This document shows, piece after piece, positions 6,941 to 45,709 of a DNA stretch of 64,000 nucleotides. The stretch covers positions 1-64,000 of the forward strand of contig JAFUPN010000042.1 in NCBI GenBank assembly GCA_017481205.1, written 5' to 3'. Numbering within the stretch: position 1 is the first letter of the stretch; every line of letters begins with the position of its first letter. Source of the DNA: Clostridia bacterium. GTDB taxonomy: Bacteria > Bacillota > Clostridia > UMGS1810. The translations under genes and the position numbers were made by a program. The notes beneath the pieces are model-generated. The model worked only from the letters and a program-made list of their open reading frames with translations. It was not told the origin of the DNA and did not search any database.

Positions 6941-6970
6941 TTGACAAACAGTCTGCGGTATATGTATAAT
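6941..6970 (+). promoter_or_regulatory. Sigma-A promoter of the LRR protein gene
   Basis: Perfect -35 TTGACA (6941-6946) and perfect -10 TATAAT (6965-6970), 18-bp spacer, 40 bp before the ATG at 7011. Confidence 0.8.
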
Positions 6971-10751: not shown

Positions 10752-11954
10752 TCAGCTGTTTTGACCGTTTATAAGAGAGGTGGATTCGCAGATTTTTTTC
10801 AGTACCATTGCGATGCCGCCTTTAAGAACTGCCATTTCTCCCAGGTGGGAATATTTTATTTCGGTGCTACTGTCAAAAAATTTCATTTTTCTTTTTTTTG
10901 CTTCCTCGGTAAGACCGGGCATTACTGCTTTGTCAAAATCCTTGATGTCTGAGTTGACCACCACCATCTTGGGATTAAACATATTGATAAGATTGTTTAC
11001 GGTGATGCCCAGATATCTTGCTTCGTCATTGATAACTCTGCAGGCTACGGGGTCGCTGTTGTATATACATGCCCTGACAATATCTGCACAACCGCTGTCC
11101 TGAGAGAGGATTGAAGCTTCGTCGGCAATGTAAGATTTCATGGCATTGAGCATGGCGTTTCGGTTGGCTTTTGTCTGGACGCAGCCTCGGTTTCCGCAGC
11201 TGCACATGTCACCGTCGGTATCAATGGTACAATGACCGATTTCGCCGGAGCCGTTTTTAAAGCCGTTGTACAGATTGCCGTTTATGACAATAGCTCCGCC
11301 TATACCGCTGCCTATGTATACAAACACCAAGTCGGACACGTTTTTTGCCACACCATACCACATTTCTCCTATGGTCATCAGGCGAACGTCGTTGTCTGCA
11401 AATACGGGCAGATTAAGCCTTTCCTGGAGCATATTGCCAATGGGAACATTACGCCAGTCAAGATTCGGCGCAAATACGGATATGCCCGAATCGGTGTCAA
11501 CTATACCGTGAAGCCCCAATCCCAGACCTGATATTTTACGGTTGGTTGTGCGGGAGTATTCGGCATACTGCTTCTCAATAAACTCCATTGATTTTTCCAC
11601 GGAGTTTTCTTTGGGAAGGGGGATTGAGTTGTAATATATTATATCCGCCTCAAAATTTGCCACTGCAAATTCAACCTTGACGGGGCTTATGTAGGCAGAG
11701 CATATGCCGTAGTCCGAGGTGTTGAATTTAAGCATAATGGGCTTTCTGCCGCCTGTGGAGCAACCTGTGTCTGCTTCAACAATTATACCGGCTGTCAGAA
11801 GCTCAGAAGTGAGGTTGGTAACCGTGGCCGGGGTAAGACCTGTTTCCTTGGCAATCTGAACTCTTGATATACTGCCGTGCTCGCGAATTTTATTCAGAAT
11901 CAATGTGATATTTGTGCTTTTCATGCGGGAAAAGCTTCCGATGGAATTTTTCAT
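10752..11954 (-). CDS. ROK-family transcriptional regulator (NagC/XylR type)
   Basis: 400 residues. The N-terminal winged helix-turn-helix (GSISRVQIAKETGLTPATVTNLTSELL, about residues 25-60) is followed by a ROK sugar-binding domain with VFVYIGSGIGGAIVINGNLY. The zinc-binding CSCGNRGC motif is at about residues 255-262. Such repressors release DNA on binding a sugar or sugar phosphate. It lies 22 bp after ctpA and 27 bp before the 584-residue gene that it may control. Confidence 0.9.
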   Translation of the reverse strand: MKNSIGSFSRMKSTNITLILNKIREHGSISRVQIAKETGLTPATVTNLTSELLTAGIIVEADTGCSTGGRKPIMLKFNTSDYGICSAYISPVKVEFAVANFEADIIYYNSIPLPKENSVEKSMEFIEKQYAEYSRTTNRKISGLGLGLHGIVDTDSGISVFAPNLDWRNVPIGNMLQERLNLPVFADNDVRLMTIGEMWYGVAKNVSDLVFVYIGSGIGGAIVINGNLYNGFKNGSGEIGHCTIDTDGDMCSCGNRGCVQTKANRNAMLNAMKSYIADEASILSQDSGCADIVRACIYNSDPVACRVINDEARYLGITVNNLINMFNPKMVVVNSDIKDFDKAVMPGLTEEAKKRKMKFFDSSTEIKYSHLGEMAVLKGGIAMVLKKICESTSLINGQNS

Positions 11955-17784: not shown

Positions 17785-17917
17785 AAAGGCTGCAGCAAAA
17801 TAAAGCATCCCGTTCCTGCAGAATGGCGAGCAAAAATACGAATTATCCGACATCCTGATGTCAGATTTATCGAAAGCTTGCCCGGATGTGGGGACTTATA
17901 TTTTGCTACAGCCTTTT
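17785..17917. repeat. Giant inverted-repeat terminator containing a degenerate repeat element
   Basis: AAAGGCTGCAGCAAAATA (17785-17802) pairs with TATTTTGCTACAGCCTTT (17899/17900-17917) at 17 of 18 positions and is followed by T. It probably terminates both bofA (+) and the GH2 operon (-). The 96-nt loop holds a degraded copy of one end of the 170-bp element found at 29.3 and 39.2 kb, around GAATGGCGAGCAAAAATAC, and the 16-mer GCCCGGATGTGGGGAC, which recurs next to the 29.3-kb copy. Confidence 0.6.
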
Positions 17918-17921
17918 GTAT

Positions 17922-20048
17922 TCAGGCAAATATCCCGTAAATCAGCAATGAATATCCGTTGTTTGCGGATTTTATTTCGATTTTTTTTATTTTCTTTTTT
18001 TCTGCCGGGTTGATTTCCAGTGAATTCATCACATAGTTATCAAAATCCTTACAAAAGCCGAAGACGGCATATCTTTGTGCGGTGCACGCCACAGGATTTA
18101 TTCTTGAGGATTTACACAGGGCAAAGACGGTGGTTATATGCTCTCCGTTGAGAAGGGAGATTGTTTCGGTTGTGCCATTCTCAAATGTGAGAATAATTTC
18201 TGCTGTCTTTTCGCTGTATTCTCCCCCGAGGGGGTAGCCTTTTGTCATACTTGTGAGACCGATGACGGTAAGCTTATGGGCATATATGTCACAAGCGATT
18301 GATATAGATGTGCCGTTGGAAATGACAAGCGGATTGTTCAATAGACCACCGGGATTGCCGGAAAGCTGCGGACCATAGCTCAGCTCACGCTTGCGAAGAC
18401 CTGACTCGGATTGTCTGATGCTGTCAATAATCTCTGCAAGAGCTGCATTACTGCCCTCGGTAATCAGATTTGTACCATCCGGGGAGGATGATACTCTGTC
18501 AAACCAGAAGCTGTCAGAGACAGGGGGATTATCCATTCTTTCTATAGCCTTTTTGAAGGCGGTATAGATGAGGGAGGGCTCGCGGTCTGCCGTCAGAAGA
18601 CCTTCAAAAAGATTTCCGTCGATGCAGGCGGGTCTGCCGCGGTTGAAATCGTTTACATTTGCCCAGCACCAGAAAAAGGCTCCGGCAAGAGCGGCTTCAT
18701 CTGAGGCATTTGTATAAAGGCTGTACAGTTCATCCATAAATTCGCCCATGAGCCGCGGGTTATCGTACATATACAGACCGCCCCATTCTGTAAAGAGTAG
18801 TGGCTTGTCTGTAAGATATCGTGCCGCTTCTGAGGGAATCTCCATGGTGGGGGCATAGGGATGGGCAGTGTAAAAATCAAAGGCGCATTTGTCGTAAAGT
18901 TTTTTTGTTGTTTCGTTATCCATACAGTTAGCGCCGGACACCATTCGTGTGGGGTCGGCTTCACGGCAGGCTGCTGCACTGTCTGAAAGGAATTTCTCGG
19001 TAAACATGCACTCATTGAAGCAGAGCCAGAACATAATCGAAGGATGATTTCTATCCCGTATTATAGTACGGCGAAGCACCTCTATGCTGCCGCTGCTTAC
19101 CTCCGGGTCGGACACCTCGGACCACCACAGCCCCGGCTCCTCGGATACCATGAGACCCAGCCTGTCGGCTATATCCAGAACCTTTTTGCCGTGGGGATAA
19201 TGAACCAGGCGTACAAAATTACAGCCGGTATCTTTAATCATCTGCATATCCCGCTCTATCTGCTCATATGTGGGGCAGTGACCGCTGCCGCCTATCATCT
19301 CATGCTTGCATACACCTCTGAGGAAAATATGCTTTCCGTTAAGAATAAAACGGTGCTTATCACAGGAGAATTCGCGGAAGCCCACGCTGCAGGTATAGAA
19401 ATCAAGCTCACAGTCATTCTTTACAAGGCGAACTTTGAGGCTGTAGAGATTAGGCTCATCCGGCGACCAGAGCTTTATGCCGGATATTTTTTGTACTATG
19501 GAATCTGCACCAGCGGGCTGAGTATAGGAAATTATTTCTTTATCCCCGTCAAGCAGCTTTATTTCAAAAATTCCGTCATCGGAAAGGGCAGAAGCTTCAA
19601 CAGCAAATTCCGCTCCGGTATAGCCGTCTGTGAGAGTTGAGCGAAAAAATACATCGGTTATATAGTTTTCATTTTTATAAACAAGATTTACATCACGGAT
19701 AATTCCGCCAAAGTTTTCCCAACCGGCAGTAGGACCGAATTTTGGAGAAAGGTCCTCAAGTTCAACGGTGAGAAAATTCTCTTTTTCTTTTACCGTATCG
19801 GTGATATCGAACATATATTCGCAGTAAGGCAGCATCTCTCCTACAAAGGCTCCGTTGAGGATTACCTTTGCGTAATAGGTTATTCCGTCGAATTTAAGAA
19901 AAATTCTGTCAAAGGACATATCGGCATCAAAATATCTGCTGCACTCGGAATGACCTACGGGCAGAGCAGAAAAAGGCACTTCACGGTCGGATATCTTTCC
20001 TTTTCCTATACGGTAGCTCCATGTGCCGTTAAGATTTTGTGTTTTCAT
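17922..20048 (-). CDS. Glycoside hydrolase family 2 (beta-galactosidase/glucuronidase-like)
   Basis: 708 residues, no signal peptide, so an intracellular exo-glycosidase. Sugar-binding and immunoglobulin-like domains (1-225) precede a TIM barrel. The acid/base Glu is E346 in MFWLCFNECMF and the nucleophile is E421 in LLFTEWGG. The C-terminal 200 residues are a beta-domain. Substrate preference (beta-galactoside, beta-glucuronide or beta-mannoside) cannot be read from the sequence. It is the last gene of a five-gene operon; its ATG overlaps the previous stop by four bases (ATGA), implying coupled translation. Confidence 0.92.
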   Translation of the reverse strand: MKTQNLNGTWSYRIGKGKISDREVPFSALPVGHSECSRYFDADMSFDRIFLKFDGITYYAKVILNGAFVGEMLPYCEYMFDITDTVKEKENFLTVELEDLSPKFGPTAGWENFGGIIRDVNLVYKNENYITDVFFRSTLTDGYTGAEFAVEASALSDDGIFEIKLLDGDKEIISYTQPAGADSIVQKISGIKLWSPDEPNLYSLKVRLVKNDCELDFYTCSVGFREFSCDKHRFILNGKHIFLRGVCKHEMIGGSGHCPTYEQIERDMQMIKDTGCNFVRLVHYPHGKKVLDIADRLGLMVSEEPGLWWSEVSDPEVSSGSIEVLRRTIIRDRNHPSIMFWLCFNECMFTEKFLSDSAAACREADPTRMVSGANCMDNETTKKLYDKCAFDFYTAHPYAPTMEIPSEAARYLTDKPLLFTEWGGLYMYDNPRLMGEFMDELYSLYTNASDEAALAGAFFWCWANVNDFNRGRPACIDGNLFEGLLTADREPSLIYTAFKKAIERMDNPPVSDSFWFDRVSSSPDGTNLITEGSNAALAEIIDSIRQSESGLRKRELSYGPQLSGNPGGLLNNPLVISNGTSISIACDIYAHKLTVIGLTSMTKGYPLGGEYSEKTAEIILTFENGTTETISLLNGEHITTVFALCKSSRINPVACTAQRYAVFGFCKDFDNYVMNSLEINPAEKKKIKKIEIKSANNGYSLLIYGIFA

Positions 20049-21127
20049 ATGCTGTTTCCTTTCGTGAGGCTGAGCTTTTTATAAATTGAGAGGATTCTGT
20101 CAGAAAGTGCGCTACCCTTGGGGAGTCCGCAGATGCTCTCAAGAAGATCGGCAGGGGTGTTTTCGCTCTTGATTTTTCTCCATGCCTCCTCGCCGTCATT
20201 GTCATAAAGGAGCATGGCGGCAACGGTTTTTTCAAGAACCGAGGTGTCCTCGCCGTATTTATCCATAACCAGCATGGGACCTATTACCCGCTCGGTTCTG
20301 CCAAGCTTTCTCTGGGGCTCGCGGGCATTTCTTGCCACAGTGTCGGCTATGGTGCGGTCGGTGAATTTGTTTCGGGAGAGAAGGGCAAATTCCTCCTGGT
20401 CCTGCTTGTCATAGCCAAACTCCCTGCAGAGAACTCTGTTGGTTATCTCATAGTTTTTGTCAAGCAGGCTGAGTATGGCTTCATCGTTTGCTGCCTCGGC
20501 ATAGTCGGTATATCCCGCCAGCCAGCCCAAGTATGCTATAATGCAGCTTGCGGCATTGTATGTAAAGAGCTTGCGTGTGAGAAAATTACCGAATTCCGCT
20601 ACGGGTCTGACAGAATCAACAGTAGGAACATAGCCTCCCAGCAGGTCTGCATTGCACTGGAGATAAGGATAATTTTCGGAGGAAATGTCAATACCGTCGG
20701 CATCTATGGTAGTGCAGAAAACGGTTGCCTCGCTGACGGATACATTGTCCATGCCGATTACTTCTTTCAGTCTGCCAGCCGGGTCGGGGTAGTTTTCACA
20801 GGTGATGATACAGTATTTTTTGTCAGGCACAAGGCGGTCTCTGAGCTTCTCGCCCACATCCTGAAGATTTGTACCGCATACTGATACAAAAATGAGCTCT
20901 GTGTCCGAAAAATCTGCATCGCCCCAGGTGTATGCCTCATAGCCGGATACAGTCACAGGTTCTCTTACATTGCCGAAAAAGTTTACCTGAAAAGGAGCTT
21001 TATTCAGCTTATCAACAAGAGCTTTGTCCTTGTCTACAAAGGAAAATTCCGTATCGCTTTCGGCAACAAGTCTGCCGATAAAGCCGCGTCCGGTTTTTCC
21101 TGCACCGATTATTGTTATTTTACTCAT
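20045..21127 (-). CDS. Mannitol-dehydrogenase-family oxidoreductase, copy 1
   Basis: 360 residues. An N-terminal Rossmann domain with IIGAGKTGRGFIGRL binds NAD. The mannitol-1-phosphate-dehydrogenase-like helical C-terminal domain carries DTVARNAREPQRKLGRTERV. The family interconverts polyols or polyol phosphates with ketoses (mannitol-1-phosphate, altronate, fructuronate types). It overlaps its upstream paralogue by 8 bases and the GH2 gene by 4. The exact substrate is unknown. Confidence 0.88.
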   Translation of the reverse strand: MSKITIIGAGKTGRGFIGRLVAESDTEFSFVDKDKALVDKLNKAPFQVNFFGNVREPVTVSGYEAYTWGDADFSDTELIFVSVCGTNLQDVGEKLRDRLVPDKKYCIITCENYPDPAGRLKEVIGMDNVSVSEATVFCTTIDADGIDISSENYPYLQCNADLLGGYVPTVDSVRPVAEFGNFLTRKLFTYNAASCIIAYLGWLAGYTDYAEAANDEAILSLLDKNYEITNRVLCREFGYDKQDQEEFALLSRNKFTDRTIADTVARNAREPQRKLGRTERVIGPMLVMDKYGEDTSVLEKTVAAMLLYDNDGEEAWRKIKSENTPADLLESICGLPKGSALSDRILSIYKKLSLTKGNSI

Positions 21128-22292
21128 TTATATAACCCTCGCTTTTCAGATAGTTTATTTTCTCTTTGACAAGCATTCCGATAGTGCCCCGGGGATCAAG
21201 CTTACATACATTTTCAAGTATATAGTCAATGCCCTGAGCGGTTCTCATTTCCCCGAGCTTTACGGCAAATTCATCGCTGTCGTTGGTATAATATATTGCT
21301 GCAGCAATGGCGATACAGAGATTTTCGGGTACTATACCGCAGGATTCCACCAGCCTTGCGGAGCCTACGAGTCTGTCATCGGGTCCCAGCTTTCTCAACG
21401 GGTCACGGGCATTGCGCTCAATAAAGTCGACTATGGTGTAGTCCTGAAGCTTGTTGAGAGATGTGCGTGTAAATGCCCACTGGTCATCAAAGGGGATTCT
21501 GTGCTTTACAGAAAGAGCCCGAGCGGTCTCATTATACACGCCGTCAAGGATTTTAAGAATTTTTTCGTCATGAGCCGCATCGGCAATTTTTTCATAGCCC
21601 ATAAGAGCGCCTACGAACGATGTGGTTCCGTTGGCGGCATTGTATGTATAAAACTTTCTTTCCAGAAAGCCGGTAAATTCCTCTACAAGCTTAAGCCCTT
21701 TGATATGGGGAAGGCTGCCCTTAACCCTTGAGGCATCTAAGGGAAGCTCCCAGAAATTCTGTACATTTACAATAAGAGGGTCTTTTTTGAGAAGCTCAGC
21801 ATCAGCTTCGATTGCACTTCGCATGATTACTGCTTCGGTAATGCCTGTGTTGTTTTCAAAAAATTCCCTTGCATTATCGCTTATGGCAGCTGAAATACCG
21901 TCTCTTAGTATATCGGCAGGCTTTTTCCAGTTTTCGCAAGTGATAAAGTTGATAAAGCCGCCCTGTTTTGCCTTTGCTTCGATGCCTGCGGCAAGGAAGG
22001 GGACTATTTCACCAAGGTTTTTGCCGCCTACGGCATTGAAAACCGCATCGCTTTGGGCAATTGCTTGGGCGATTTCTTCTTTCTGAGAGAATTTGAGCGC
22101 CTTTGCATTTTTTACAACGCAGTTTTCGGCGCTGTTGCCGAGAATGTTGACCGTATATTCGCCCCGCTCGTTGATAAGGTCTGCAAGGGCATCTGCTTTT
22201 TCTACAAAAACAAAATCAATATTGCTCAGATAGAGCAGGTGACCGATAAAGCCTCTGGCTATCTTGCCTGCTCCGAAAATTACACAGCTCAT
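21120..22292 (-). CDS. Mannitol-dehydrogenase-family oxidoreductase, copy 2
   Basis: 390 residues, with the same architecture as its downstream neighbour. The Rossmann motif is VIFGAGKIARGFIGHLLYLS and the C-terminal motif is DFIERNARDPLRKLGPDDRL. The two paralogues are clearly divergent, so they probably act on different substrates or as a heteromer rather than being a recent duplication. The ATG overlaps the FGGY-kinase stop by four bases. Confidence 0.88.
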   Translation of the reverse strand: MSCVIFGAGKIARGFIGHLLYLSNIDFVFVEKADALADLINERGEYTVNILGNSAENCVVKNAKALKFSQKEEIAQAIAQSDAVFNAVGGKNLGEIVPFLAAGIEAKAKQGGFINFITCENWKKPADILRDGISAAISDNAREFFENNTGITEAVIMRSAIEADAELLKKDPLIVNVQNFWELPLDASRVKGSLPHIKGLKLVEEFTGFLERKFYTYNAANGTTSFVGALMGYEKIADAAHDEKILKILDGVYNETARALSVKHRIPFDDQWAFTRTSLNKLQDYTIVDFIERNARDPLRKLGPDDRLVGSARLVESCGIVPENLCIAIAAAIYYTNDSDEFAVKLGEMRTAQGIDYILENVCKLDPRGTIGMLVKEKINYLKSEGYINE

Positions 22293-23668
22293 AGCTGCAC
22301 CTCCTTGAATTTTTTATATGTATTTTTTAGTGAGGGATATAGCTCTTTATATATTTCATAGCGTTTAAGCAAAAGAGTTCTTAAGCATCCTGATGGCTTT
22401 ATCCGCTGCTTTATGCGACAAAATGCCTTCGACGCCGCCATTGCATCGGGATAAGCTCCGCTGCCTATTGCCGCTGTCATGGCTGCGCCAAGGGCTGAGG
22501 TGTCATTTTCCTCCATAATCACAGCCGGGATATTGAACATTTCTGCCTTAAGGAAATTCAAAGTATTGTTATTAGCCGCACCACCGCTGATTTTCAGCTC
22601 ACGGGCAGGCGGGAAGCCGAGATTTTCGTATATATGATAAATACTGAAGGTTACGCCCTCAAGCACGGAATATGCCAGGCTTTCGCGGCTGCAGCCTGAG
22701 CTTATGCCAAAAAAGGTGCCGGTGGCATTGCTGTCGAATACCGGGGCTCTCTCTCCGTTGAGATACGGGGTGAAAACCGGAGAGCTTTGTACAAGGCTTT
22801 CGCTGACAGTGATGTTGCCAAGTCCAAAGCTTTTTAAACCGAAGTCCAGGGATGCTCCGCTTGATGCCGTTACGCCGTAATGTACAAAATTGTTTATATA
22901 CGGTCCGGAGACCATTGAGGTGGATTCATCAACAGAATCTGTTATGACGCCGAGATGCTCGCTTGTTCCGGTTATATCAAACATATCTCCCGGTGATGTC
23001 ATGCCCATTCCCATAAGTGAAGCAAAGAAATCGTTGAGCCCTGTATAAACAGGGGTTCCTGGCGGTATGCCGGTAAGCAGGCTCACCTCAGAGGTTATCC
23101 CACCAAGGGGTGAACAATGACCGATTATCTCCGGCAGCTGCGGATTGTCTGTTTCATTAAGAAAAAAGCGGCTGTATGCGCCTGTGTCCATATCGGCAAG
23201 ACCGCGCCAGGAGTATTTATCCGTGGCATAATTGCCTGTAAGCAGTCTGCCTATAATGTCCTTTGGCTGACAAACCGCGGCACCGTTTCCGTAAATTTTC
23301 TGGATATATTTCAGTCGTGGTATGGGATATGAAATAATATCCGGATGAGGCATGGATATTTCTCTTACAAATTCTGCCGTGGTGAAACGGCTTTTAATAT
23401 CCTCAAGCTCCTCTTTGCCCCCAGGGCTGTTCCAGCTTATCACATCTTTTTCGTTTATTATATATGTGCCTACCTGAGACGAAAGCCCTATTGCACAGCT
23501 TTCAGGGAAATCAATATGCGAAAGTGCCTTAAGAACGGCATTACACCACCCGCAGGGAGAAGGCTCGTTATATTCTGCTTTTGATTTTGCTGTCCTGCCG
23601 TCCGGATATCTGCATATTACCTTTACCGATGATGTACCCAGGTCTATGCCCGCATATGCTCTATTCAT
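22289..23668 (-). CDS. FGGY-family carbohydrate kinase
   Basis: Phosphorylates a sugar or polyol with ATP in the cytoplasm. The ATG at 23668 is chosen because it gives the family N-terminus MNRAYAGIDLGTSSVKV and overlaps the upstream stop by 8 bases; the longer frame would invade the upstream gene. About 459 residues. Actin-fold motifs are DLGTSSVK near the start, FDITGTSEHLG in the middle and ELKISGGAANNNTLNFLKAEMF near the C-terminus. Its polyol-dehydrogenase neighbours suggest a sugar alcohol or ketose substrate. Confidence 0.92.
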   Translation of the reverse strand: MNRAYAGIDLGTSSVKVICRYPDGRTAKSKAEYNEPSPCGWCNAVLKALSHIDFPESCAIGLSSQVGTYIINEKDVISWNSPGGKEELEDIKSRFTTAEFVREISMPHPDIISYPIPRLKYIQKIYGNGAAVCQPKDIIGRLLTGNYATDKYSWRGLADMDTGAYSRFFLNETDNPQLPEIIGHCSPLGGITSEVSLLTGIPPGTPVYTGLNDFFASLMGMGMTSPGDMFDITGTSEHLGVITDSVDESTSMVSGPYINNFVHYGVTASSGASLDFGLKSFGLGNITVSESLVQSSPVFTPYLNGERAPVFDSNATGTFFGISSGCSRESLAYSVLEGVTFSIYHIYENLGFPPARELKISGGAANNNTLNFLKAEMFNIPAVIMEENDTSALGAAMTAAIGSGAYPDAMAASKAFCRIKQRIKPSGCLRTLLLKRYEIYKELYPSLKNTYKKFKEVQL

Positions 23669-24677
23669 TGATAAAAACCGCCTTGATAAAGCCGTCGGGG
23701 CGCCTTCTTGCCATGTCAAGACCTTTATCAAATTCGTCAAGACAAAGCCTGTGGGTAATAAAGCAGGAAAGATCCACAAGACCTTCTTCCATAAGATTTA
23801 CAGCTTTTTTAAACATATTCCAGTTGTTGCCGGCGCCGATAACTTTAAGGTTTTTTACATGGATATCATCCATGCGTATGCTTATGGTCTTGCCTCTGCC
23901 ATAGCCTGCAAGCATGACAGTGCCGCCTCTTTTTGCAATACGCAGACAGCTCTGTATACATTCCTCAATGCCTGTGGCGTCAATTATAAGGTCGGTGCCA
24001 CCGGGATGAAGCTTTTTCATGGCGGTTTCAATATTTTCTTCGCTTGTGGCAACGGTTGCATATGCTCCCATGGCTTTTGCTGTCCTGAGTCTTGACTCCT
24101 TGGTGGCGCATACCACAATTTTGCGCATGCCCATCGCCTTGCCTACTGCCAGCATGGAAAGACCTATGGAGCCCGCTCCCATTATAAGCAGGGTATCGCC
24201 GGATTTTGCCTTTGCTTTTTTAAAGGTTCCGAGAGCAACCCCCAGAGGCTCGCACAGTGCAGCATGCTCAAAGGATATATTATCCGGTTTTTCGCACAGA
24301 CCATACACGGGGACTATTACATATTCCGCATAAGCTCCGTTGCGCCTGAAGCCGATTTCCTCAAAGCTTTCGCAATATCTCCAATTGCCGTTAAGGCAGG
24401 CCTCGCACCTGAGGCACACTACGTCGTTGCTTCCCACGACATTTTTTCCTACCCAATGTGCATCGGCTTCGTCTCCCACGCAGTCTACGGTACCGCTCCA
24501 TTCATGACCGGGGATTATGGGGTAGTTTGCGGGGATATTGCCGTCGATTATCTCCAGGTCTGTAGCACATATTGCTGCCGCCTTTACCTTGATTCTTGCA
24601 AAGCCCTTTGGAGGTACGGGGATATCCACATCCTTTAAAGCAAGCTCTCCGGGCTTTTGTATAACTACTGCCTTCAT
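23661..24677 (-). CDS. Zinc-dependent medium-chain alcohol dehydrogenase
   Basis: About 338 residues. The ATG at 24677 is preceded by AAGGGAG with 8-base spacing; an upstream in-frame start lacks a site. GroES-like N-terminal domain: catalytic zinc Cys in AAAICATDLE and His/Glu in PGHEWSG; structural zinc cysteines in VCLRCEACLNGNWRYCESF. NAD-binding motif GAGSIGLSMLAVG. Related enzymes include sorbitol, galactitol and threonine dehydrogenases. First gene of the five-gene operon, driven by the palindromic promoter at 24708-24742. Confidence 0.93.
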   Translation of the reverse strand: MKAVVIQKPGELALKDVDIPVPPKGFARIKVKAAAICATDLEIIDGNIPANYPIIPGHEWSGTVDCVGDEADAHWVGKNVVGSNDVVCLRCEACLNGNWRYCESFEEIGFRRNGAYAEYVIVPVYGLCEKPDNISFEHAALCEPLGVALGTFKKAKAKSGDTLLIMGAGSIGLSMLAVGKAMGMRKIVVCATKESRLRTAKAMGAYATVATSEENIETAMKKLHPGGTDLIIDATGIEECIQSCLRIAKRGGTVMLAGYGRGKTISIRMDDIHVKNLKVIGAGNNWNMFKKAVNLMEEGLVDLSCFITHRLCLDEFDKGLDMARRRPDGFIKAVFINE

Positions 24678-24707
24678 GGTATATACTCCCTTCAATATCA
24701 TTGATTA

Positions 24708-24742
24708 TTGACAATTATATCACGGTGTGATATAATTGTCAA
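24708..24742. promoter_or_regulatory. Perfectly palindromic bidirectional promoter/operator
   Basis: A 35-bp perfect palindrome: TTGACAATTATATCAC, then GGT, then GTGATATAATTGTCAA. Each strand carries a consensus sigma-A promoter within it. Plus strand: TTGACA 24708-24713, 17-bp spacer, TATAAT 24731-24736. Minus strand: TTGACA 24737-24742, 17-bp spacer, TATAAT 24714-24719. The plus promoter drives the UlaG-like gene and the minus promoter the five-gene operon. Polymerase cannot occupy both at once, and any dimeric repressor would see a symmetric site. Confidence 0.88.
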
Positions 24743-24755
24743 GAGGTGATTAATC

Positions 24756-25583
24756 ATGACAAAGGAATTTTTTACTGAAACGAGGCTTGCAGACGGACAA
24801 ATCGGTATTTTTTATCTGGGACAGGTAGGCTTTATCATTAAGTACAGAGATAAATATATTCTGATTGACGGGTATCTGTCGGACTATGTTGACAAAAACT
24901 GCTCTTCTGACGCTGTAAAATGGATACGAAGATATCCGGCACCCATAGATGCGGAAAAGCTGGATTTTGTGGATTATGTATTCTGTACTCATGCCCACTA
25001 CGACCATGCCGACCCGTATACCCTCGGTAAGCTTAATAAGGTTAACAAAAAGGCGAAATATATAGTCTCAGCCGCTATAGCGGATACAATCGCTTCTTAC
25101 GGAATTGCAAAGGAAAACATAATCGGTCTTGAATGTGACAAAAAGACATCTCTATGCAGGGATATTGCAGTTACAGCCATCCCCTCTGCCCATGAGGAGT
25201 TTCATATGGATGGAAATGATAATTTCCTTGAGGTTGGCTTCCGTTTTGAGCTTGGCAATATAAGTATCTACCACGGCGGAGACGGCTGCCCCTATGATGG
25301 GCTGGAGGAGAGAATATCCGGCTGTGATATACTCATGCTTCCTGTCAATGGCAGGGATTATTACAGAACAAATGTGTGCGACATAATAGGCTGCTTTGAT
25401 AGCACCGAGGCGGCGATTATTGCAAAAAGAAGCGGTGCGGATTTGCTTATACCCACACATTTTGATTTATATGACGTAAACTGTATCAATCCTGCTGAAT
25501 TTGTGGACAAGCTGTACAGGGTAAATCCCGGACAGAAATTCCATATGTTTGCACCGGGAGAAAGATATATTTACAGCAAATAA
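24756..25583 (+). CDS. Metallo-beta-lactamase-fold hydrolase, UlaG-like
   Basis: 275 residues, cytoplasmic. The MBL metal motif is THAHYDHADPYT (about residues 81-92); further ligands lie in AIPSAHEE, HGGD and PTHFD. It resembles L-ascorbate-6-phosphate lactonase (UlaG) and related sugar-lactone hydrolases, but ascorbate use is not supported by any neighbouring Ula gene. Divergent from the polyol operon. SD AGAGGTG (24742-24748) begins right where transcription would start, so the leader is very short. Likely part of the same pathway, for example opening a lactone made by one of the dehydrogenases. Confidence 0.85.
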   Translation: MTKEFFTETRLADGQIGIFYLGQVGFIIKYRDKYILIDGYLSDYVDKNCSSDAVKWIRRYPAPIDAEKLDFVDYVFCTHAHYDHADPYTLGKLNKVNKKAKYIVSAAIADTIASYGIAKENIIGLECDKKTSLCRDIAVTAIPSAHEEFHMDGNDNFLEVGFRFELGNISIYHGGDGCPYDGLEERISGCDILMLPVNGRDYYRTNVCDIIGCFDSTEAAIIAKRSGADLLIPTHFDLYDVNCINPAEFVDKLYRVNPGQKFHMFAPGERYIYSK

Positions 25584-25584
25584 T

Positions 25585-25628
25585 TTGACAAAGCACCCGG
25601 TAGAATGATATACTTTAACCGTACCGGG
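25585..25628 (+). promoter_or_regulatory. Promoter and candidate autoregulatory operator of the ROK gene
   Basis: TTGACA (25585-25590), 18-bp spacer, TATACT (25609-25614). An inverted repeat CCCGGTA (25596-25602) / TACCGGG (25622-25628) brackets the -10 element, a position suited to repression. Confidence 0.6.
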
Positions 25629-25638
25629 AGGTGTTGAT

Positions 25639-26700
25639 TTGAAAAAATATATAGACCTTGAGGATATGGTTAATGTAAACTGCTCAAATGTTCTTGATAT
25701 TATACAGAAAAACGGAGTTGTTTCGAGAAAAGCCATTACCGATATCAGCGGACTAAGCTGGGGAGGTATGACAAAAATTGTAAATAAGCTTTTAGAAAAC
25801 GGATATATCACCGAGAAGAAGCAGAAAAACACCTCTTCAAGCGGAAGAACTCCCGGGGTGCTGACTGTTAACACAGAAAAAAATTTTGTGGCGGGTCTGG
25901 ATATAAACAAAACAGGTCTTAAGGCAGTTGTGACTGACTTGACGGGAAAAATCCTTAAAAGCTATTCCGCACCGGTATATACCGCTGAAAAGGAGAGCTT
26001 TTTGGAGGAAATTACGGATTTTATCGGAAAGGTGTTTTCTGATTTTGAAAAAGGGTTGATTATCTCCATGGGGGTTGCCATGCAGGGAATTGTGGACAGC
26101 AGGCGAGGGATTTCGGTTAAATTTCCCGATGCGGAGGGCTGGGAAAATGTGCCCGTAAAAAAATTGCTGGAAGAAAAATTCGGCGTAAGTGTATTTATTG
26201 AGCACGACCCGGACTGCCTGCTATATTCTCAGCTGGGGTACGGAGCAAAGGAAAATGCCGTATTGCTCCGTATAGACAAAAGCATAGGTATGGCGGCGGC
26301 AATCGGTGGCAGGATAATCAAGGGTGAAGGAATCTTTGAAATTGCACACAATGTTGTCATGCCGGGCGGCGCAAAATGCAGCTGCGGTATGCATGGATGT
26401 ATGGAAGCATATATCCGCCCGTGCATGGATGGGGACAAAATCAACACTGGTGCTGTGGGAGAGCTGATGCTGCCCTTGGCTGCCACGGTAAAGAATATGT
26501 GCGGTATTTTTAATGCAGACAGAGTTATTCTCACAGGGGCATTGATGGAGCATGAGGAGTTGTTCTGCAATGACTTGCACGATGCTTTGGCAAGTCTGGA
26601 CTGTAATGTAAAAATAGAGTTTTTGCCTCTGGCGGATTTTGCAGTAAAGGGAGCCGCGCTTATTGCAGTGAATAAGTCAATAAATTCACTGCTTATATAA
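25639..26700 (+). CDS. ROK-family transcriptional regulator
   Basis: 353 residues. Starts with TTG at 25639, five bases after GGGAGGTG. N-terminal winged helix (NGVVSRKAITDISGLSWGGMTKIVNKLL, about residues 23-52) and ROK domain with a FVAGLDINKTGLKAVVTDL phosphate-binding segment. The zinc motif CSCGMHGCMEAY is near residue 253. Transcribed with or just after the UlaG-like gene. The probable local repressor of the palindromic promoter or of its own promoter; this is inference from position. Confidence 0.9.
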   Translation: MKKYIDLEDMVNVNCSNVLDIIQKNGVVSRKAITDISGLSWGGMTKIVNKLLENGYITEKKQKNTSSSGRTPGVLTVNTEKNFVAGLDINKTGLKAVVTDLTGKILKSYSAPVYTAEKESFLEEITDFIGKVFSDFEKGLIISMGVAMQGIVDSRRGISVKFPDAEGWENVPVKKLLEEKFGVSVFIEHDPDCLLYSQLGYGAKENAVLLRIDKSIGMAAAIGGRIIKGEGIFEIAHNVVMPGGAKCSCGMHGCMEAYIRPCMDGDKINTGAVGELMLPLAATVKNMCGIFNADRVILTGALMEHEELFCNDLHDALASLDCNVKIEFLPLADFAVKGAALIAVNKSINSLLI

Positions 26701-26708
26701 TCAAAATA

Positions 26709-26752
26709 AAAGGAGCTGAAGCAAGATGAATTCGTTTTGCTTCAGCTCCTTT
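26709..26752 (+). terminator. Terminator of the ROK gene
   Basis: AAAGGAGCTGAAGCAA pairs perfectly with TTGCTTCAGCTCCTTT, starting nine bases after the ROK stop. The tail is TTTGTGTTT. Confidence 0.85.
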
Positions 26753-26798: not shown

Positions 26799-26924
26799 TT
26801 AGAAGGAAACAGAAATAATAGCTGTCTTAGACAGTCTGTCGTCCCCGAATGACCTTGCATTGCATATTAATTCATTTTGCTACAGCCTGTTTGTATTCAG
26901 AAAGAAACAGAAATAATAGCTGTT
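26799..26924. repeat. Repeated 3' end of the GH51 gene around a repeat-derived insert
   Basis: The last nine codons of the GH51 gene (TAIISVSF plus stop) occur twice in direct orientation: an isolated copy at 26799-26826 and the real gene end at 26897-26924. The 70 bp between contains an end-fragment of the 170-bp element (ACAGTCTGTCGTCCCC) and ATTTTGCTACAGCC...TTTGTATTCAG (26874-26900). The latter also lies immediately before the GH2 stop at 17900-17925. Confidence 0.65.
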
Positions 26925-28387: not shown

Positions 28388-28417
28388 TTGACATTTTCTC
28401 GCTGTTTGTTGTATAAT
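28388..28417 (+). promoter_or_regulatory. Sigma-A promoter of the AraC gene at 28451
   Basis: TTGACA (28388-28393), 18-bp spacer, TATAAT (28412-28417), 33 bp before the ATG. Confidence 0.8.
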
Positions 28418-29618: not shown

Positions 29619-31874
29619 TTATATCAAGCCTTCTGCCTGCCTGATAAACCCATCCTGCTCCGGTTTTGTTATATTGTTAAAAAGCACATTCCAGCCGCAA
29701 ACACGAATTTGCAAATCCCGGTACTTCTCCGGTTCCTTTTGAGCCCGGCGTAGAGTATCGGCATCAAAAACATTTATATGCAGAGCATGACCGCCGCGTT
29801 TTATAAAGGTCATAAGCAGTCCGTACATGGCTACAAGTCCGTCCTCACCCTTTACGGCGGAGGGCAAGAGTCCCATATCCAGCGTTGCATCGGAGCAAAA
29901 TGCTGTTGCGTCGATTTTTGTGACAGAAAGTATTGCCGATGTTGCACCCTCGCGGTTCATACCCATAGAAGCCGAAAGATTTTTGGAAAGCTCCTCTCCT
30001 TTGAGTCTTCCATTAGGCGAAGATGCCGTAAGGGGTGCCTGAGAATATGACTGACGTGCAACATGGAAGCCTAAATTCCATTTTCCGCCCCGCTCCTCGG
30101 TGTTTGGTCTGCCGCAAACACGGGAGCAGACAAATTCTGCAATATCCTTTGCAAAATAATCGGGCAAATCCTTGTTGTTGCCGTATTTGTCCCTATCGGC
30201 AAGGAGCTGCATACGCAACAATTCATTACCCTTGAAATCCTTATCCAGAATATCCCGAAGCTTACTTAATGTGAGCTTTTTGCTGTCGAACACGTATTTT
30301 TTTATGTTGGTTAAAGAATCAGAAATATCTGCCATGAAGCCGAACATCATTTGGCTTCCGTTTGATGCCGCACCGCCGCCCATTGCATCCTTTGCGCTTT
30401 CAATACAGGACGATATGGTTGCCGAAAGTATTGACTGAGGACTGATATAAGGCAGATAAGCTTCAAAGGAATTTGAAATATCAATTACTTCATCTACCAG
30501 ATAGCTCAGCTGCTTTTTATATTCGTTGTAAAATTCCTCAAAGGTTTCATATTCCTCCGCTTTGGGACTTTTGAGACCTGCAAAATTACCATTTATACCG
30601 TCGCAGCCTGCGTGCAAAGCATATTCCAACGGTTTGAGAAGATTAACATAATTCATACTTGTACTGTCATAAGCACCCTGCAGAGCGTATTCATAGCAGC
30701 CCTTGATATCGCAAAGTCTTGCCTGCTCTTTGGTTGCGCCTGTATTCATAAGTGCCCTTCTTATAATGGCGTCATTGACAAAAACAATACTGTTGTTGCC
30801 ACGGCGTATCATATCAAGTGCTTTAAGTATAAAGTCTTTGGGAGTGCTGTCAGCAATTTTTATCTGAATTTTGGGGTTATAAATACCCATTTTGTCATAA
30901 ACATCAAGAAAAATATAGGAAAGCTCATTTATTTGGGTGGATTCATCCTCTTTGCAGCCGCCAAGATAAACAGGTTGACCCCAATAGTTGCCGATAGCGG
31001 TAAACTGAAGTAGAAAATATGCAAGGTCGGTTCGTATTTCCTGTTCGCTTATGCCGTTTTCCAGGTCTTTTTTATAAAAACTGTATAAAACACGGTCAAA
31101 GTTGGACAGGGAACGCACCTGCAAGCCCTCGACGTGTTCGCACAGTATAAAGTAAAGGTAATCTGTAAGCAGGGCTTCATAAAAGCTCTGAGGCGCATTG
31201 CTTTTAATATTTTCAAGTGCTCTTGCCATTTTAAGCGAGCCCTGCTTTTCAGCCTGTATATGTAAGCGCTCTATAAAATTCAGGATAGCGGTATATGTGA
31301 TTTTAATACCGTCAAAGAATGCTTCCTGATTTTCAGTAATATTTTTCCTCATTGCGCGCATTTTTTCGCTCGCTTCAAGTATTCCGCAAAATCCCAACGC
31401 AAAAACACGTTCCCAAACGGGTACGCTGTGGTCATAATCGGGCCAGATTGTAGCAATGCCATTGTCCTCCATATAAGCACGCTTTTTTTCTACATCGGGT
31501 ATTATTGTGCCGAATACTTCATTTTTCCACTCGGCGACAACTGTTTTGTTCAGCGGGCGATCCACCATATTAATCCCGGGGAAAATATCTCTTTTGTCAC
31601 AGGAAATTCTTGTGTTTTTCAGCACATATTCAAAAGCCTTTGCCTTGCGCACAGGGTGTGAAAGGTTTTTGATTTGTTCATCCTGCTTCTTAATGCCGTC
31701 TATAATATCGTCCCCCAGCATACCCGTGCTCTCATCAAAGATTTCATCATGGCGGATAAAACGGTTGAAAATATGTGCACCTCTGTGAACGCTGTCAAAG
31801 CTCTCTGATTTTTCTTTTTGGTCGTGATATTTATTCATTATGTAGTCGTAATCTGTGTTTTTGATGTATTCCAT
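29619..31874 (-). CDS. Glycyl radical enzyme of unrecognised substrate (GRE1)
   Basis: 751 residues, pyruvate formate-lyase fold, cytoplasmic and oxygen-sensitive. Thiyl-radical site C393 in DIKGCYEYALQG, with the following Glu (E395) that serves as general base in non-PFL enzymes. The glycyl-radical motif is RVCGW (G727), 28 residues from the end. PFL itself has a Cys-Cys pair, so this is not PFL. The segment after the cysteine does not match the choline, glycerol, hydroxyproline or isethionate classes that I can recall. It has its own promoter and an AAGGAGGT site; no activase lies beside it. The enzyme at 43508-45709 is a paralogue. Confidence 0.9.
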   Translation of the reverse strand: MEYIKNTDYDYIMNKYHDQKEKSESFDSVHRGAHIFNRFIRHDEIFDESTGMLGDDIIDGIKKQDEQIKNLSHPVRKAKAFEYVLKNTRISCDKRDIFPGINMVDRPLNKTVVAEWKNEVFGTIIPDVEKKRAYMEDNGIATIWPDYDHSVPVWERVFALGFCGILEASEKMRAMRKNITENQEAFFDGIKITYTAILNFIERLHIQAEKQGSLKMARALENIKSNAPQSFYEALLTDYLYFILCEHVEGLQVRSLSNFDRVLYSFYKKDLENGISEQEIRTDLAYFLLQFTAIGNYWGQPVYLGGCKEDESTQINELSYIFLDVYDKMGIYNPKIQIKIADSTPKDFILKALDMIRRGNNSIVFVNDAIIRRALMNTGATKEQARLCDIKGCYEYALQGAYDSTSMNYVNLLKPLEYALHAGCDGINGNFAGLKSPKAEEYETFEEFYNEYKKQLSYLVDEVIDISNSFEAYLPYISPQSILSATISSCIESAKDAMGGGAASNGSQMMFGFMADISDSLTNIKKYVFDSKKLTLSKLRDILDKDFKGNELLRMQLLADRDKYGNNKDLPDYFAKDIAEFVCSRVCGRPNTEERGGKWNLGFHVARQSYSQAPLTASSPNGRLKGEELSKNLSASMGMNREGATSAILSVTKIDATAFCSDATLDMGLLPSAVKGEDGLVAMYGLLMTFIKRGGHALHINVFDADTLRRAQKEPEKYRDLQIRVCGWNVLFNNITKPEQDGFIRQAEGLI

Positions 31875-42626: not shown

Positions 42627-43508
42627 TCAATATGGGATAGCATTTTTTACCCCGCTGTGTTTGATTTTTTCTATTACACCTGAAATTTCTTCTTTTGTGG
42701 GTGGTACAATATGGGGAAGCGGATAATTCAGCCCAAGAGTATTGTATTTTCTTTCTGCATAATTGTGATAAGGTAATATCCGCATTACTTTTACGGACTT
42801 CAGGTTTTTTACAAATTCTGCAATTTTCTCCGCTTCACCTTCATTCATTGCAGGTATATACGGATATCTTATTTCCATAGGAATGCTGAGAGAGTCAATA
42901 TATTTGATATTTTCTAATATCTGATTGTTTGATACACCCGTGCATTTTATGTGCACGTCATCATCAATTGCCTTTATGTCAAAGAGGAATGTATCTGTAT
43001 AGGGAATTATTTTGTCAAGAGTTTCTTTTTTTACAAATCCGCTTGTATCTACAGCGATGTTTATTCCGTGTTTTTTTAAAATCCTTGCGGTTTCAATACA
43101 CAAATCCACCTGCATAAGCGGCTCGCCGCCTGAAAAAGTCACTCCGCCGCCGCTTCCTTTCATAAAAATCTCGTCTTTAAGAACTGCATCTGCAATTTCC
43201 TCTGCTGACATTTCTTTGCCTGATATATCAAAGGCATTATTGGGACACAGTGCCTCACATTTACCGCACAAGGTGCAGTTTTCTTTAATGAAAATATGTT
43301 TTCCGTCTTTGGCGATATTGGCATTACATATTCCGATACAGCTTAAACAGCTTGTGCAAAGCTCGTTGTCAAAGAGTATTTCTTTTTCAAAAGACAGAGA
43401 TTCCGGATTGTGGCACCATTTGCATCTCAGTGGACAGCCCTTGAAGAATACAGTTGTTCTTATACCGTCACCGTCATGAATTTCAAAAGGTTTTATTGCA
43501 AAAATCAT
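42627..43508 (-). CDS. Glycyl radical enzyme activase (radical SAM)
   Basis: Installs the glycyl radical on its partner, using S-adenosylmethionine and a [4Fe-4S] cluster. 293 residues. The radical-SAM motif is CPLRCKWC (C25, C29, C32). A bis-[4Fe-4S] ferredoxin-like insert with eight cysteines follows (C51, 54, 57, 61 and 78, 81, 84, 88). This is the long activase type found with non-PFL glycyl radical enzymes. TAATG overlap with the GRE2 stop means translational coupling. It is the only activase in the window, so it might also serve GRE1. Confidence 0.95.
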   Translation of the reverse strand: MIFAIKPFEIHDGDGIRTTVFFKGCPLRCKWCHNPESLSFEKEILFDNELCTSCLSCIGICNANIAKDGKHIFIKENCTLCGKCEALCPNNAFDISGKEMSAEEIADAVLKDEIFMKGSGGGVTFSGGEPLMQVDLCIETARILKKHGINIAVDTSGFVKKETLDKIIPYTDTFLFDIKAIDDDVHIKCTGVSNNQILENIKYIDSLSIPMEIRYPYIPAMNEGEAEKIAEFVKNLKSVKVMRILPYHNYAERKYNTLGLNYPLPHIVPPTKEEISGVIEKIKHSGVKNAIPY

Positions 43509-45709
43509 TAACCTGACACCTCACATTGCTTTATGAACATGTCTTGTTTTACCTTACTTAGTTTAACAAAATATTCATTCCAGCCGCATACTCTCACTTG
43601 AAGCGTTGAATATTTTTCGGGATTGCGCTGCGCATCCATTAAAGTTTCTTTATTTACTACATTCCCCTGAATTGCGAAGCCGCCGTTGTTAATAAAAATT
43701 TTTATAAGAGAGATAAAATCTGCAAGCCCTTTTTCGCCTTCAACAGCAGATGGATGCAATATAAAATCAAAGGGTACGCCATTCACATAAGATGCCGAAT
43801 CAATTTTCAGCACAGACTGCATATATGCCGTTATGCCGCCTCTGTCCATTCCGTTTGAGGCACATAAATTTTTTGAAACCGGTTTTTTAGCATTTCTCCC
43901 GTCAGGTGTAGCGGATGTTTTTTCACCGTGAGCTATACAGTGATATACCGAATCAAGACCGAGACGTAAAACACCGCCTCTTTTAAGCTTTCTTCCGCAG
44001 TATCTGTCTGCAAGGTGGTTTGTAATATCAGTCATTATTTTATCGGGAGTTGTCAGGTTATTTCCGTATTTTTCCTTATCGCGGATAATCTTATTTTGCA
44101 GGTCATTAAATCCTTTCCAATCCTGCAAAAGGGCTTTTCTCATATCCTCAAGAGAAATTTCTTTGCTGTCAAAAACATATTTTTTTATTGCGGTAAGAGA
44201 ATCAACAGTGGTTGCAAGACCATGATGCTTTAAAGACAAATTATTATATTTTAACGGATATTCATGCACATCCATTCCCTTTTCAATACACTCCGAAAAA
44301 CTGCTTGAATATATAGGTGACGGATTCATGAGAGTGCTGTAGTCCCCTTGCTTTTCAATAAAATCTAAAGCAAAATCCGTACAGTAATCAAGTTGTTTTA
44401 AGAAAATATCAAAAAACTCGTCAAAGCTTTTGATTTCTAATTTGCTTTCATAACCTATTTGCCTGTCTGTCAATATATCCCTTCCTCCGTTTATGGCAAA
44501 TTCTATGCATTTTACCATATTAAAACGAAGCGGCGCAATTTCGCCTTCTTCAAGCCCGATAATAATTGGCTCATAGCATCCAAGCAAAACGTAATTCTGT
44601 GAGTCCTCTTTGGGAATACCGATTTTTTTGTATCCTTCAAATACTGCTTCGTCATTTACAATACAGATACTGCTGTGACCGCCTCTTATCATTGAAAGAG
44701 CTTTTTTGAGTATTTCGCCATCCAGATTTTTATGGTATCTTATCTGGATTTTAGGATTGTAAATATTCAGTTCATCATATGTGTTAAGAATAAGATGACT
44801 AAGCTTATTTGTCATATCGTTTCCGTCTTTATCTGATCCACACATGGTAAAAGGCTGTTCTGCATATCTTTTTGCTGCTGTAAAATGAATAAAGAAATAT
44901 CGGAAAAGCTCTTTTAGCTCAGCTTCTGTTTTTCCGCTCTTTATATCATTTTCAAAATACGGAAGATACAATCTGTCGATGTGTCCGAGTGTTCTTCCTC
45001 TTTCGATTCCTATTTCTTCAAAATACAGATAAAGTATGGAAAACTGCATAACCTCATACAAGGTTTCAGGGGGATTTGTCATAAGATTTTTTATGCACTT
45101 TGAAAATTCAGGTACATTGAATTTGAGTGAATAGATGTATATTCTGTTAAGAAGCCTTAAAATTGCATTATAGCATATTATTACCGAGTCAAGAAATACA
45201 ATCTGTTTCTCATTGTGATTCTTACTTGAAAGGAGCTTTTCTTTTGAAGCTTGTGCATTTTTCAGGATTCCGGAAAAGCCGCATTTCAATAAGTATGACC
45301 AATTCGGAACTGTATGGGTAAAATCAACACACATCCAGTCCAGTCCGACATCTGCCAATTTTTTCATTTTTGTGTATTCTTCGGGAAGCTTTTCGTTCAG
45401 AATCTTTTTAACCTGCGAAGAAAACAATGCATTTTGAAAAATACTTTCTGTAGCAAAATAAGAATAGTCGATACCAAGGTTTATTTTTACGGAAAACGGA
45501 GTATGCTCGTTAATCTCAAGCTGCACATTGTCCAAAAGATACGAATATGCATTTGCATACACAATTTGTCGGGATTCGTCTGTGGGTGCATCTTGTATTT
45601 CTTTGAATTTTTCATACATAATGTCGGCATCAAGTCCTGTTGAAGTATCAAATACTGCATTTTCAAACTCATTTTCAATGTGCTTTCGGTTTTCAATAAA
45701 AGTTTTCAT
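43508..45709 (-). CDS. Glycyl radical enzyme of unrecognised substrate (GRE2)
   Basis: 733 residues, somewhat short for the family. Thiyl-radical site C378 in VLLGCYEPIIIG, general-base Glu E380, glycyl motif RVCGW (G709), 28 residues from the C-terminus exactly as in GRE1. The Cys-site context (GCYEP) is near but not identical to the GCVEP of choline-lyase and dehydratase types. GAGGTG lies 8 bases before the ATG. Operon: GRE2, activase, a pseudogene remnant, the TIM-barrel protein, the DMT transporter. No microcompartment shell genes are nearby, so any aldehyde product would be free in the cytoplasm. Confidence 0.92.
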   Translation of the reverse strand: MKTFIENRKHIENEFENAVFDTSTGLDADIMYEKFKEIQDAPTDESRQIVYANAYSYLLDNVQLEINEHTPFSVKINLGIDYSYFATESIFQNALFSSQVKKILNEKLPEEYTKMKKLADVGLDWMCVDFTHTVPNWSYLLKCGFSGILKNAQASKEKLLSSKNHNEKQIVFLDSVIICYNAILRLLNRIYIYSLKFNVPEFSKCIKNLMTNPPETLYEVMQFSILYLYFEEIGIERGRTLGHIDRLYLPYFENDIKSGKTEAELKELFRYFFIHFTAAKRYAEQPFTMCGSDKDGNDMTNKLSHLILNTYDELNIYNPKIQIRYHKNLDGEILKKALSMIRGGHSSICIVNDEAVFEGYKKIGIPKEDSQNYVLLGCYEPIIIGLEEGEIAPLRFNMVKCIEFAINGGRDILTDRQIGYESKLEIKSFDEFFDIFLKQLDYCTDFALDFIEKQGDYSTLMNPSPIYSSSFSECIEKGMDVHEYPLKYNNLSLKHHGLATTVDSLTAIKKYVFDSKEISLEDMRKALLQDWKGFNDLQNKIIRDKEKYGNNLTTPDKIMTDITNHLADRYCGRKLKRGGVLRLGLDSVYHCIAHGEKTSATPDGRNAKKPVSKNLCASNGMDRGGITAYMQSVLKIDSASYVNGVPFDFILHPSAVEGEKGLADFISLIKIFINNGGFAIQGNVVNKETLMDAQRNPEKYSTLQVRVCGWNEYFVKLSKVKQDMFIKQCEVSG

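Follow-up and report, generated by a model that had tools for sequence, protein, structure and literature searches.

Interlocked divergent consensus promoters with a predicted ROK operator in their shared spacer at a carbohydrate-catabolism locus of Clostridia

Overlapping divergent promoters have been described in several bacteria. On the Bacillus subtilis plasmid pLS20, the divergent promoters Pc and Pr of the RcoLS20 switch coincide, and their starts have been mapped; the authors consider it most likely that the -10 and -35 elements swap places exactly, and they note that the site can hold a single polymerase (PMC4207663). There, a strong Pc is paired with a weak Pr that is activated by RcoLS20, and regulation involves multiple motifs and tetramer-driven DNA looping (PMC4207663). 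In the bidirectional promoters described by Warman, Grainger, and coworkers, the two -10 elements are shared and the starts lie 7 to 25 bp apart, typically 18 bp (PMC12825309, PMC10268837). One of these is the acrA/acrR promoter, where the repressor represses both RNAs (PMC12825309, PMC10268837). The bidirectional promoters that were tested had low basal activity and no two-sided consensus hexamers (PMC12825309, PMC10268837), and improving the -35 on one side of E. coli bidirectional promoters produced competition (PMC12825309). For the ROK family, XylR of Bacillus and Paenibacillus binds a palindrome between the divergent xylR and xylA genes, with half-sites of the form GTTT-N7-AAAC (PMC9104551).

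We analyzed a 64,000-nucleotide stretch of DNA from a Clostridia bacterium (the window) in which positions 24708 to 24742 carry two divergent sigma-A promoters, and the element reads TTGACAATTATATCAC GGT GTGATATAATTGTCAA (Table 1). It had been described, in the original prediction, as a perfect 35-bp palindrome. The arms, 16 bp each, are indeed 100% complementary, but the 3-nt center GGT is not self-complementary, which makes the element an interrupted palindrome of 16+3+16. The -35 and -10 hexamers were said to be perfect on both strands, and this was confirmed: TTGACA-N17-TATAAT is present on each strand with 12/12 matches, and a TG ahead of each -10 makes it an extended -10. The promoters overlap each other, although not on exactly the same 35 bp as had been proposed. 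Each is 29 bp long, 23 bp are common to both, their union is 35 bp, and each -35 abuts the opposite -10. At the central trinucleotide the two strands differ, with TGTGA preceding the rightward -10 and CGTGA preceding the leftward one. The claim that the two promoters are of equal strength was not supported, since the flanks, leaders, and -16 bases are unlike on the two sides and the hexamers themselves differ in several relatives.

Table 1. Coordinates of the twin-promoter element, its predicted parts, and the neighboring features in the window
Feature	Position	Strand	Remarks
Symmetric element	24708..24742	.	16-bp arms + GGT; union of two interlocked promoters; conserved in 21 loci
Rightward sigma-A promoter	24708..24736	+	-35 TTGACA 24708-24713; 17-bp spacer; TG 24728-24729; -10 TATAAT 24731-24736
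Leftward sigma-A promoter	24714..24742	-	-35 TTGACA 24742-24737; 17-bp spacer; TG 24722-24721; -10 TATAAT 24719-24714
Predicted operator core TATCAC-GGT-GTGATA	24718..24732	.	Lies in common spacer; overlaps innermost bases of each -10
Predicted rightward transcription start	24743..24744	+	Inferred, 7-8 nt past -10
Predicted leftward transcription start	24706..24707	-	Inferred, 7-8 nt past -10
Shine-Dalgarno GAGGTGAT of MBL gene	24743..24750	+	Abuts palindrome
Shine-Dalgarno AAGGGAG of ADH gene	24686..24692	-	ADH start ATG at 24677
MBL-fold (Lactamase_B_2) protein, UlaG/metal-dependent-hydrolase-like	24756..25583	+	First gene rightward
Promoter-like site TTGACA-N18-TATACT before ROK gene	25585..25614	+	11/12
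ROK-family regulator, N-terminal winged HTH	25639..26700	+	Predicted ligand of operator
Hairpin, -33.5 kcal/mol	26709..26752	.	Between convergent ROK and arabinofuranosidase genes
Zinc-dependent medium-chain dehydrogenase (ADH)	23661..24677	-	First gene leftward
FGGY-family sugar kinase	22289..23668	-	
Mannitol-1-phosphate-dehydrogenase-like protein a	21120..22292	-	
Mannitol-1-phosphate-dehydrogenase-like protein b	20045..21127	-	
GH2 glycosidase	17922..20048	-	Last of leftward gene run

The element resembles pLS20 Pc/Pr in that divergent sigma-A promoters occupy one stretch of DNA, beside a regulator gene, with a putative regulator motif inside the promoters. Its four hexamers fall within 35 bp, and with the 23 shared base pairs this would place it among coinciding promoters of the pLS20 type; the geometry of the overlap suggests that one polymerase would exclude the other. 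The original prediction had the two transcription units forced to compete for polymerase, and with this geometry such competition is plausible. Complete overlap is unusual, as had been claimed, but it has this mapped precedent in Bacillota. The window differs from pLS20 in its two consensus promoters, its one palindromic site, and its ROK candidate, and each -10 abuts the opposite -35 rather than coinciding with it. As at the promoters of Warman et al., symmetry in the element would drive divergent initiation, and polymerases would exclude each other. However, its -10s (24714-24719 and 24731-24736) are separate, and the start spacing predicted from their positions is about 36 to 38 bp, compared with the 7 to 25 bp of those promoters. 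Having no shared -10, the element falls outside the strict definition of a bidirectional promoter used by Warman et al. As with XylR, a palindrome lies between divergent sugar-use genes and is predicted to bind a ROK repressor; unlike the XylR site, its sequence is TATCAC-N3-GTGATA and it sits within interlocked promoters. The NagC/Mlc operators of E. coli, CGC-N3-GCG in AT-rich arms, have a layout that may resemble TCAC-N3-GTGA, with different central bases. NagC/Mlc operators are not known to be combined with a pair of interlocked consensus promoters. A further possible precedent is the E. coli bio operator.

In the region 24743-24756, the rightward mRNA is predicted to begin at or beside the Shine-Dalgarno site of the MBL gene, with a leader of only about 12 to 13 nt. 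An MBL Shine-Dalgarno site that abuts the element, with a short predicted leader, was likewise found in four relatives (L001, L005, L007, and L029). The hairpin downstream of the ROK gene is probably a two-way terminator. The NCBIfam matches of the locus proteins all fall under the curated cutoffs. A role of the palindrome as an RNA hairpin or attenuator was rejected: neither predicted transcript would include it, both starts being downstream of it on their own strands, and folding of the leaders is not unusual (z = 1.81 and 0.22).

Chance does not account for the twin-promoter element. In 60 first-order surrogates of the window, perfect 12/12 promoters occurred at 0.017 per surrogate, and 8 such surrogates contained no perfect inverted repeat with arms of more than 10 bp and a spacer of 0 to 10. 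The window holds other perfect promoters, at 6941, 28388, and 33835, and so consensus promoters are not unique to this element. Its copy number in the whole genome is 1, which ruled out a repeated element. The core TATCAC-N3-GTGATA has one exact copy and seven one-mismatch matches in this 71% complete genome, and a genome-wide regulon was rejected on present data because the exact core is single-copy there. When 391 genomes of the class were searched with the element pattern at up to 3 mismatches, matches were confined to this locus. A search of 398 Bacillota genomes for the generic geometry TTGACAATTATA-N11-TATAATTGTCAA, again with up to 3 mismatches, found the pattern without mismatch in the window alone, plus eight further matches that each had exactly 3 mismatches; the reversed control of the pattern gave two genomes in the same search. 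The element sequence was not found in the literature searched.

Relatives of the locus were collected by scanning other Clostridia for the MBL protein, which gave 23 loci (L005 to L027) and one distant partial match (L028); L001 and L029 were added from the pattern searches. Immediately upstream of the MBL gene, the element was present in 21 loci, counting the window, from several Clostridia families. Its divergent neighbor is the ADH operon in 11 of the 21 and the ROK gene in the other 10, and the element is kept despite this swap of partner. Arm symmetry is 16/16 in nine loci (the window, L005, L007, L010, L021, L022, L025, L026, and L029), which include both gene arrangements, and most of the core is kept in all 21. 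Thus, the symmetry that the original prediction expected to persist in orthologous loci has mostly done so. Once the near duplicates L021/L022, L023/L024, and L007/L029 were reduced, leaving 18 distinct loci, the element averaged 1.61 bits of information per position, and the 40-nt flanks averaged 0.39 and 0.31. The left half of the operator core, TATCAC, is present in 21/21 loci, and the right half is nearly invariant. We also compared spacer bases that lie outside the hexamers, counting both half-sites in the 21 loci: C16/G20 match the consensus in 41/42 cases and T13/A23 in 42/42. Sigma-A alone could account for retention of the hexamers, but it has no requirement for these spacer bases.

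In the Lachnospiraceae loci, exact symmetry about the center is reduced to 6-bp arms, TATCAC/GTGATA (2 bp in L023 and L024), while their outer hexamers drift on each side. Therefore, the palindromic operator is probably short. Most of these loci nevertheless retain, on each strand, hexamers that a polymerase could use (TTGAC[TGC] with TAAAAT leftward). We infer that the long symmetry of the window may arise from a short operator and two near-consensus promoters superposed at 17-bp spacing. L006, L008, and L009 have lost the left -35, and a new TTGACA-17-TACAAT stands exactly 21 bp upstream, with the operator kept; the leftward promoter, which faces the ROK gene, remains 12/12. This displacement of the rightward promoter means that full overlap is common but not obligatory. 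Arms in L007 and L029 are perfect over 27 bp (57 bp in all) and take in both Shine-Dalgarno sites, so that the two transcripts would start with mirror-identical leaders.

The product of 25639-26700 matches PF00480 with 98.8 bits and PF13412 with 28.5 bits, each over the cutoff, and is thus a ROK protein with an N-terminal winged helix-turn-helix. Its nearest solved structures are Lmo0178 and Mlc. By profile, NagC and Mlc are the nearest characterized ROK regulators, and its scores stay below the curated equivalog thresholds of both orthologs, with 120.8 of 650 bits for NagC and 117.6 of 530 bits for Mlc. A local ROK ortholog is present in 19/21 loci with the element and in 0/5 without it (Fisher p = 3e-4, kinship ignored), and all 19 loci that carry the ROK gene have the element. 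Seven MBL loci have no local ROK gene; five of these have no element, and the other two, L023 and L024, have its most decayed form (25/32 positions). Searches at E up to 1e-20 found no ROK ortholog in the whole genomes of L012, L014, L018, L020, L023, and L027, which like the others are mostly metagenome assembled, so that absence of a gene is not certain. The only match, in the L024 genome, is a paralog with 25% identity and with different residues at the S-W-G positions described below.

The ROK proteins of the 19 loci form two groups with about 34% mean identity between them. Even so far apart, all 19 have S40-W41-G42, which fall in the region that aligns with the HTH recognition helix, and share the linker G69-R70-x-P72. 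ROK paralogs differ at S-W-G, and the second ROK protein of the window (10752-11954) has TPA there. In L013, the ROK gene is placed elsewhere in the locus and transcribed separately, and a second, weaker operator copy, TTGACAGTTTTATCACATCGTGACATGATTGACAG, is found in its promoter (L013:3863-3897). From this co-occurrence and co-decay, and from the divergent rok gene in ten relatives, we strongly favor the ROK protein at 25639-26700 as the putative repressor of the element. The promoter-like site ahead of the ROK gene in the window has no operator, and autoregulation there would therefore be indirect. In L012 and L014, the losses of the ROK gene and of the operator could both be consequences of operon rearrangement.

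We consider it likely, from sequence comparison, that the element holds a ROK-repressor operator in the spacer common to its two interlocked, divergent promoters and controls the carbohydrate-catabolism locus, with one dimer shutting both. Without inducer, the ROK repressor, most likely dimeric, would occupy TATCAC-N3-GTGATA. With the core in the common spacer and touching both -10s, one bound dimer would block RNA polymerase on either strand. The leftward block would silence the ADH-kinase-dehydrogenase genes; the rightward block would silence the MBL gene and also the ROK gene, which read-through would reach. Release of ROK from the operator would be brought about by an inducer, presumably a sugar or sugar phosphate of the pathway, and the free element would then load one polymerase at a time, in either direction. 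That one repressor dimer could shut both promoters had been suggested from the start, and a symmetric site suitable for such a dimer is present. It seems unlikely that the mirror symmetry itself was selected, with two equal, saturating promoters acting as a one-polymerase divider that would fix the ratio of the operons and lower noise after induction independently of the repressor.

A perfect palindrome inevitably duplicates a promoter, and we asked whether there might be a single real promoter, the opposite hexamers arising only because a long palindromic operator, through its symmetry, copies the promoter of the first strand. This is rather improbable. The operator of the Lachnospiraceae needs no long palindrome, given its 6-bp arms, yet most of these loci keep hexamers on two strands, and in L006, L008, and L009 the leftward promoter has stayed intact after the rightward one moved upstream. 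In addition, each flanking gene begins close to the element with a Shine-Dalgarno site. The operator might also belong to another regulator, for example of the TetR, GntR, or Crp type, with the ROK gene merely linked to it. Outward TCAC-N3-GTGA palindromes do occur beyond ROK proteins. However, the recurrence of ROK with the element, and its genome-wide absence wherever the element has disappeared or decayed furthest, make this very unlikely, and an unsystematic look saw no second regulator recurring with the element. Finally, the locus is patchy: the MBL gene is missing from the 15 other genomes of the family (1/16, the one being the genome of the window), as might be expected if the symmetry were a chance arrangement or a mobile or recombination palindrome with no regulatory role. 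We give this almost no credence, since the element holds the same position in 21 loci despite diverged flanks, is present once in the genome, and is not expected by chance.

Overlapping divergent promoters being already known, we judge that the element would work in the same way as these, while its symmetry and its match to consensus are unusual and it is widely conserved. The overlapping divergent promoters that we compared from the literature are unequal, activator dependent, or weak. Here, in a natural and conserved case, both promoters are consensus and one predicted operator lies between them, and competition for polymerase should peak. The relatives form a ready-made series of symmetric, asymmetric, and uncoupled elements, the last with a promoter moved by 21 bp, in which the cost and benefit of site sharing would be measurable without design work. 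The core also provides a testable candidate operator for an uncharacterized ROK regulator of gut Clostridia.

Several other features of the window were observed. A perfect TTGACA-N18-TATAAT at 28388-28417 precedes an AraC-family regulator gene that is divergent from the arabinofuranosidase gene. Two glycyl-radical enzymes of a PFL-like family (29619-31874 and 43508-45709) are encoded amid AraC regulators, and the radical-SAM protein at 42627-43508, which adjoins one of them, is probably its activase. An 18-nt inverted repeat (17785-17802 and 17899-17916), its copies 96 nt apart, lies next to the GH2 gene on its 3' side. A related end (TTTTGCTACAGCC) is found again next to the arabinofuranosidase gene, near 26875.
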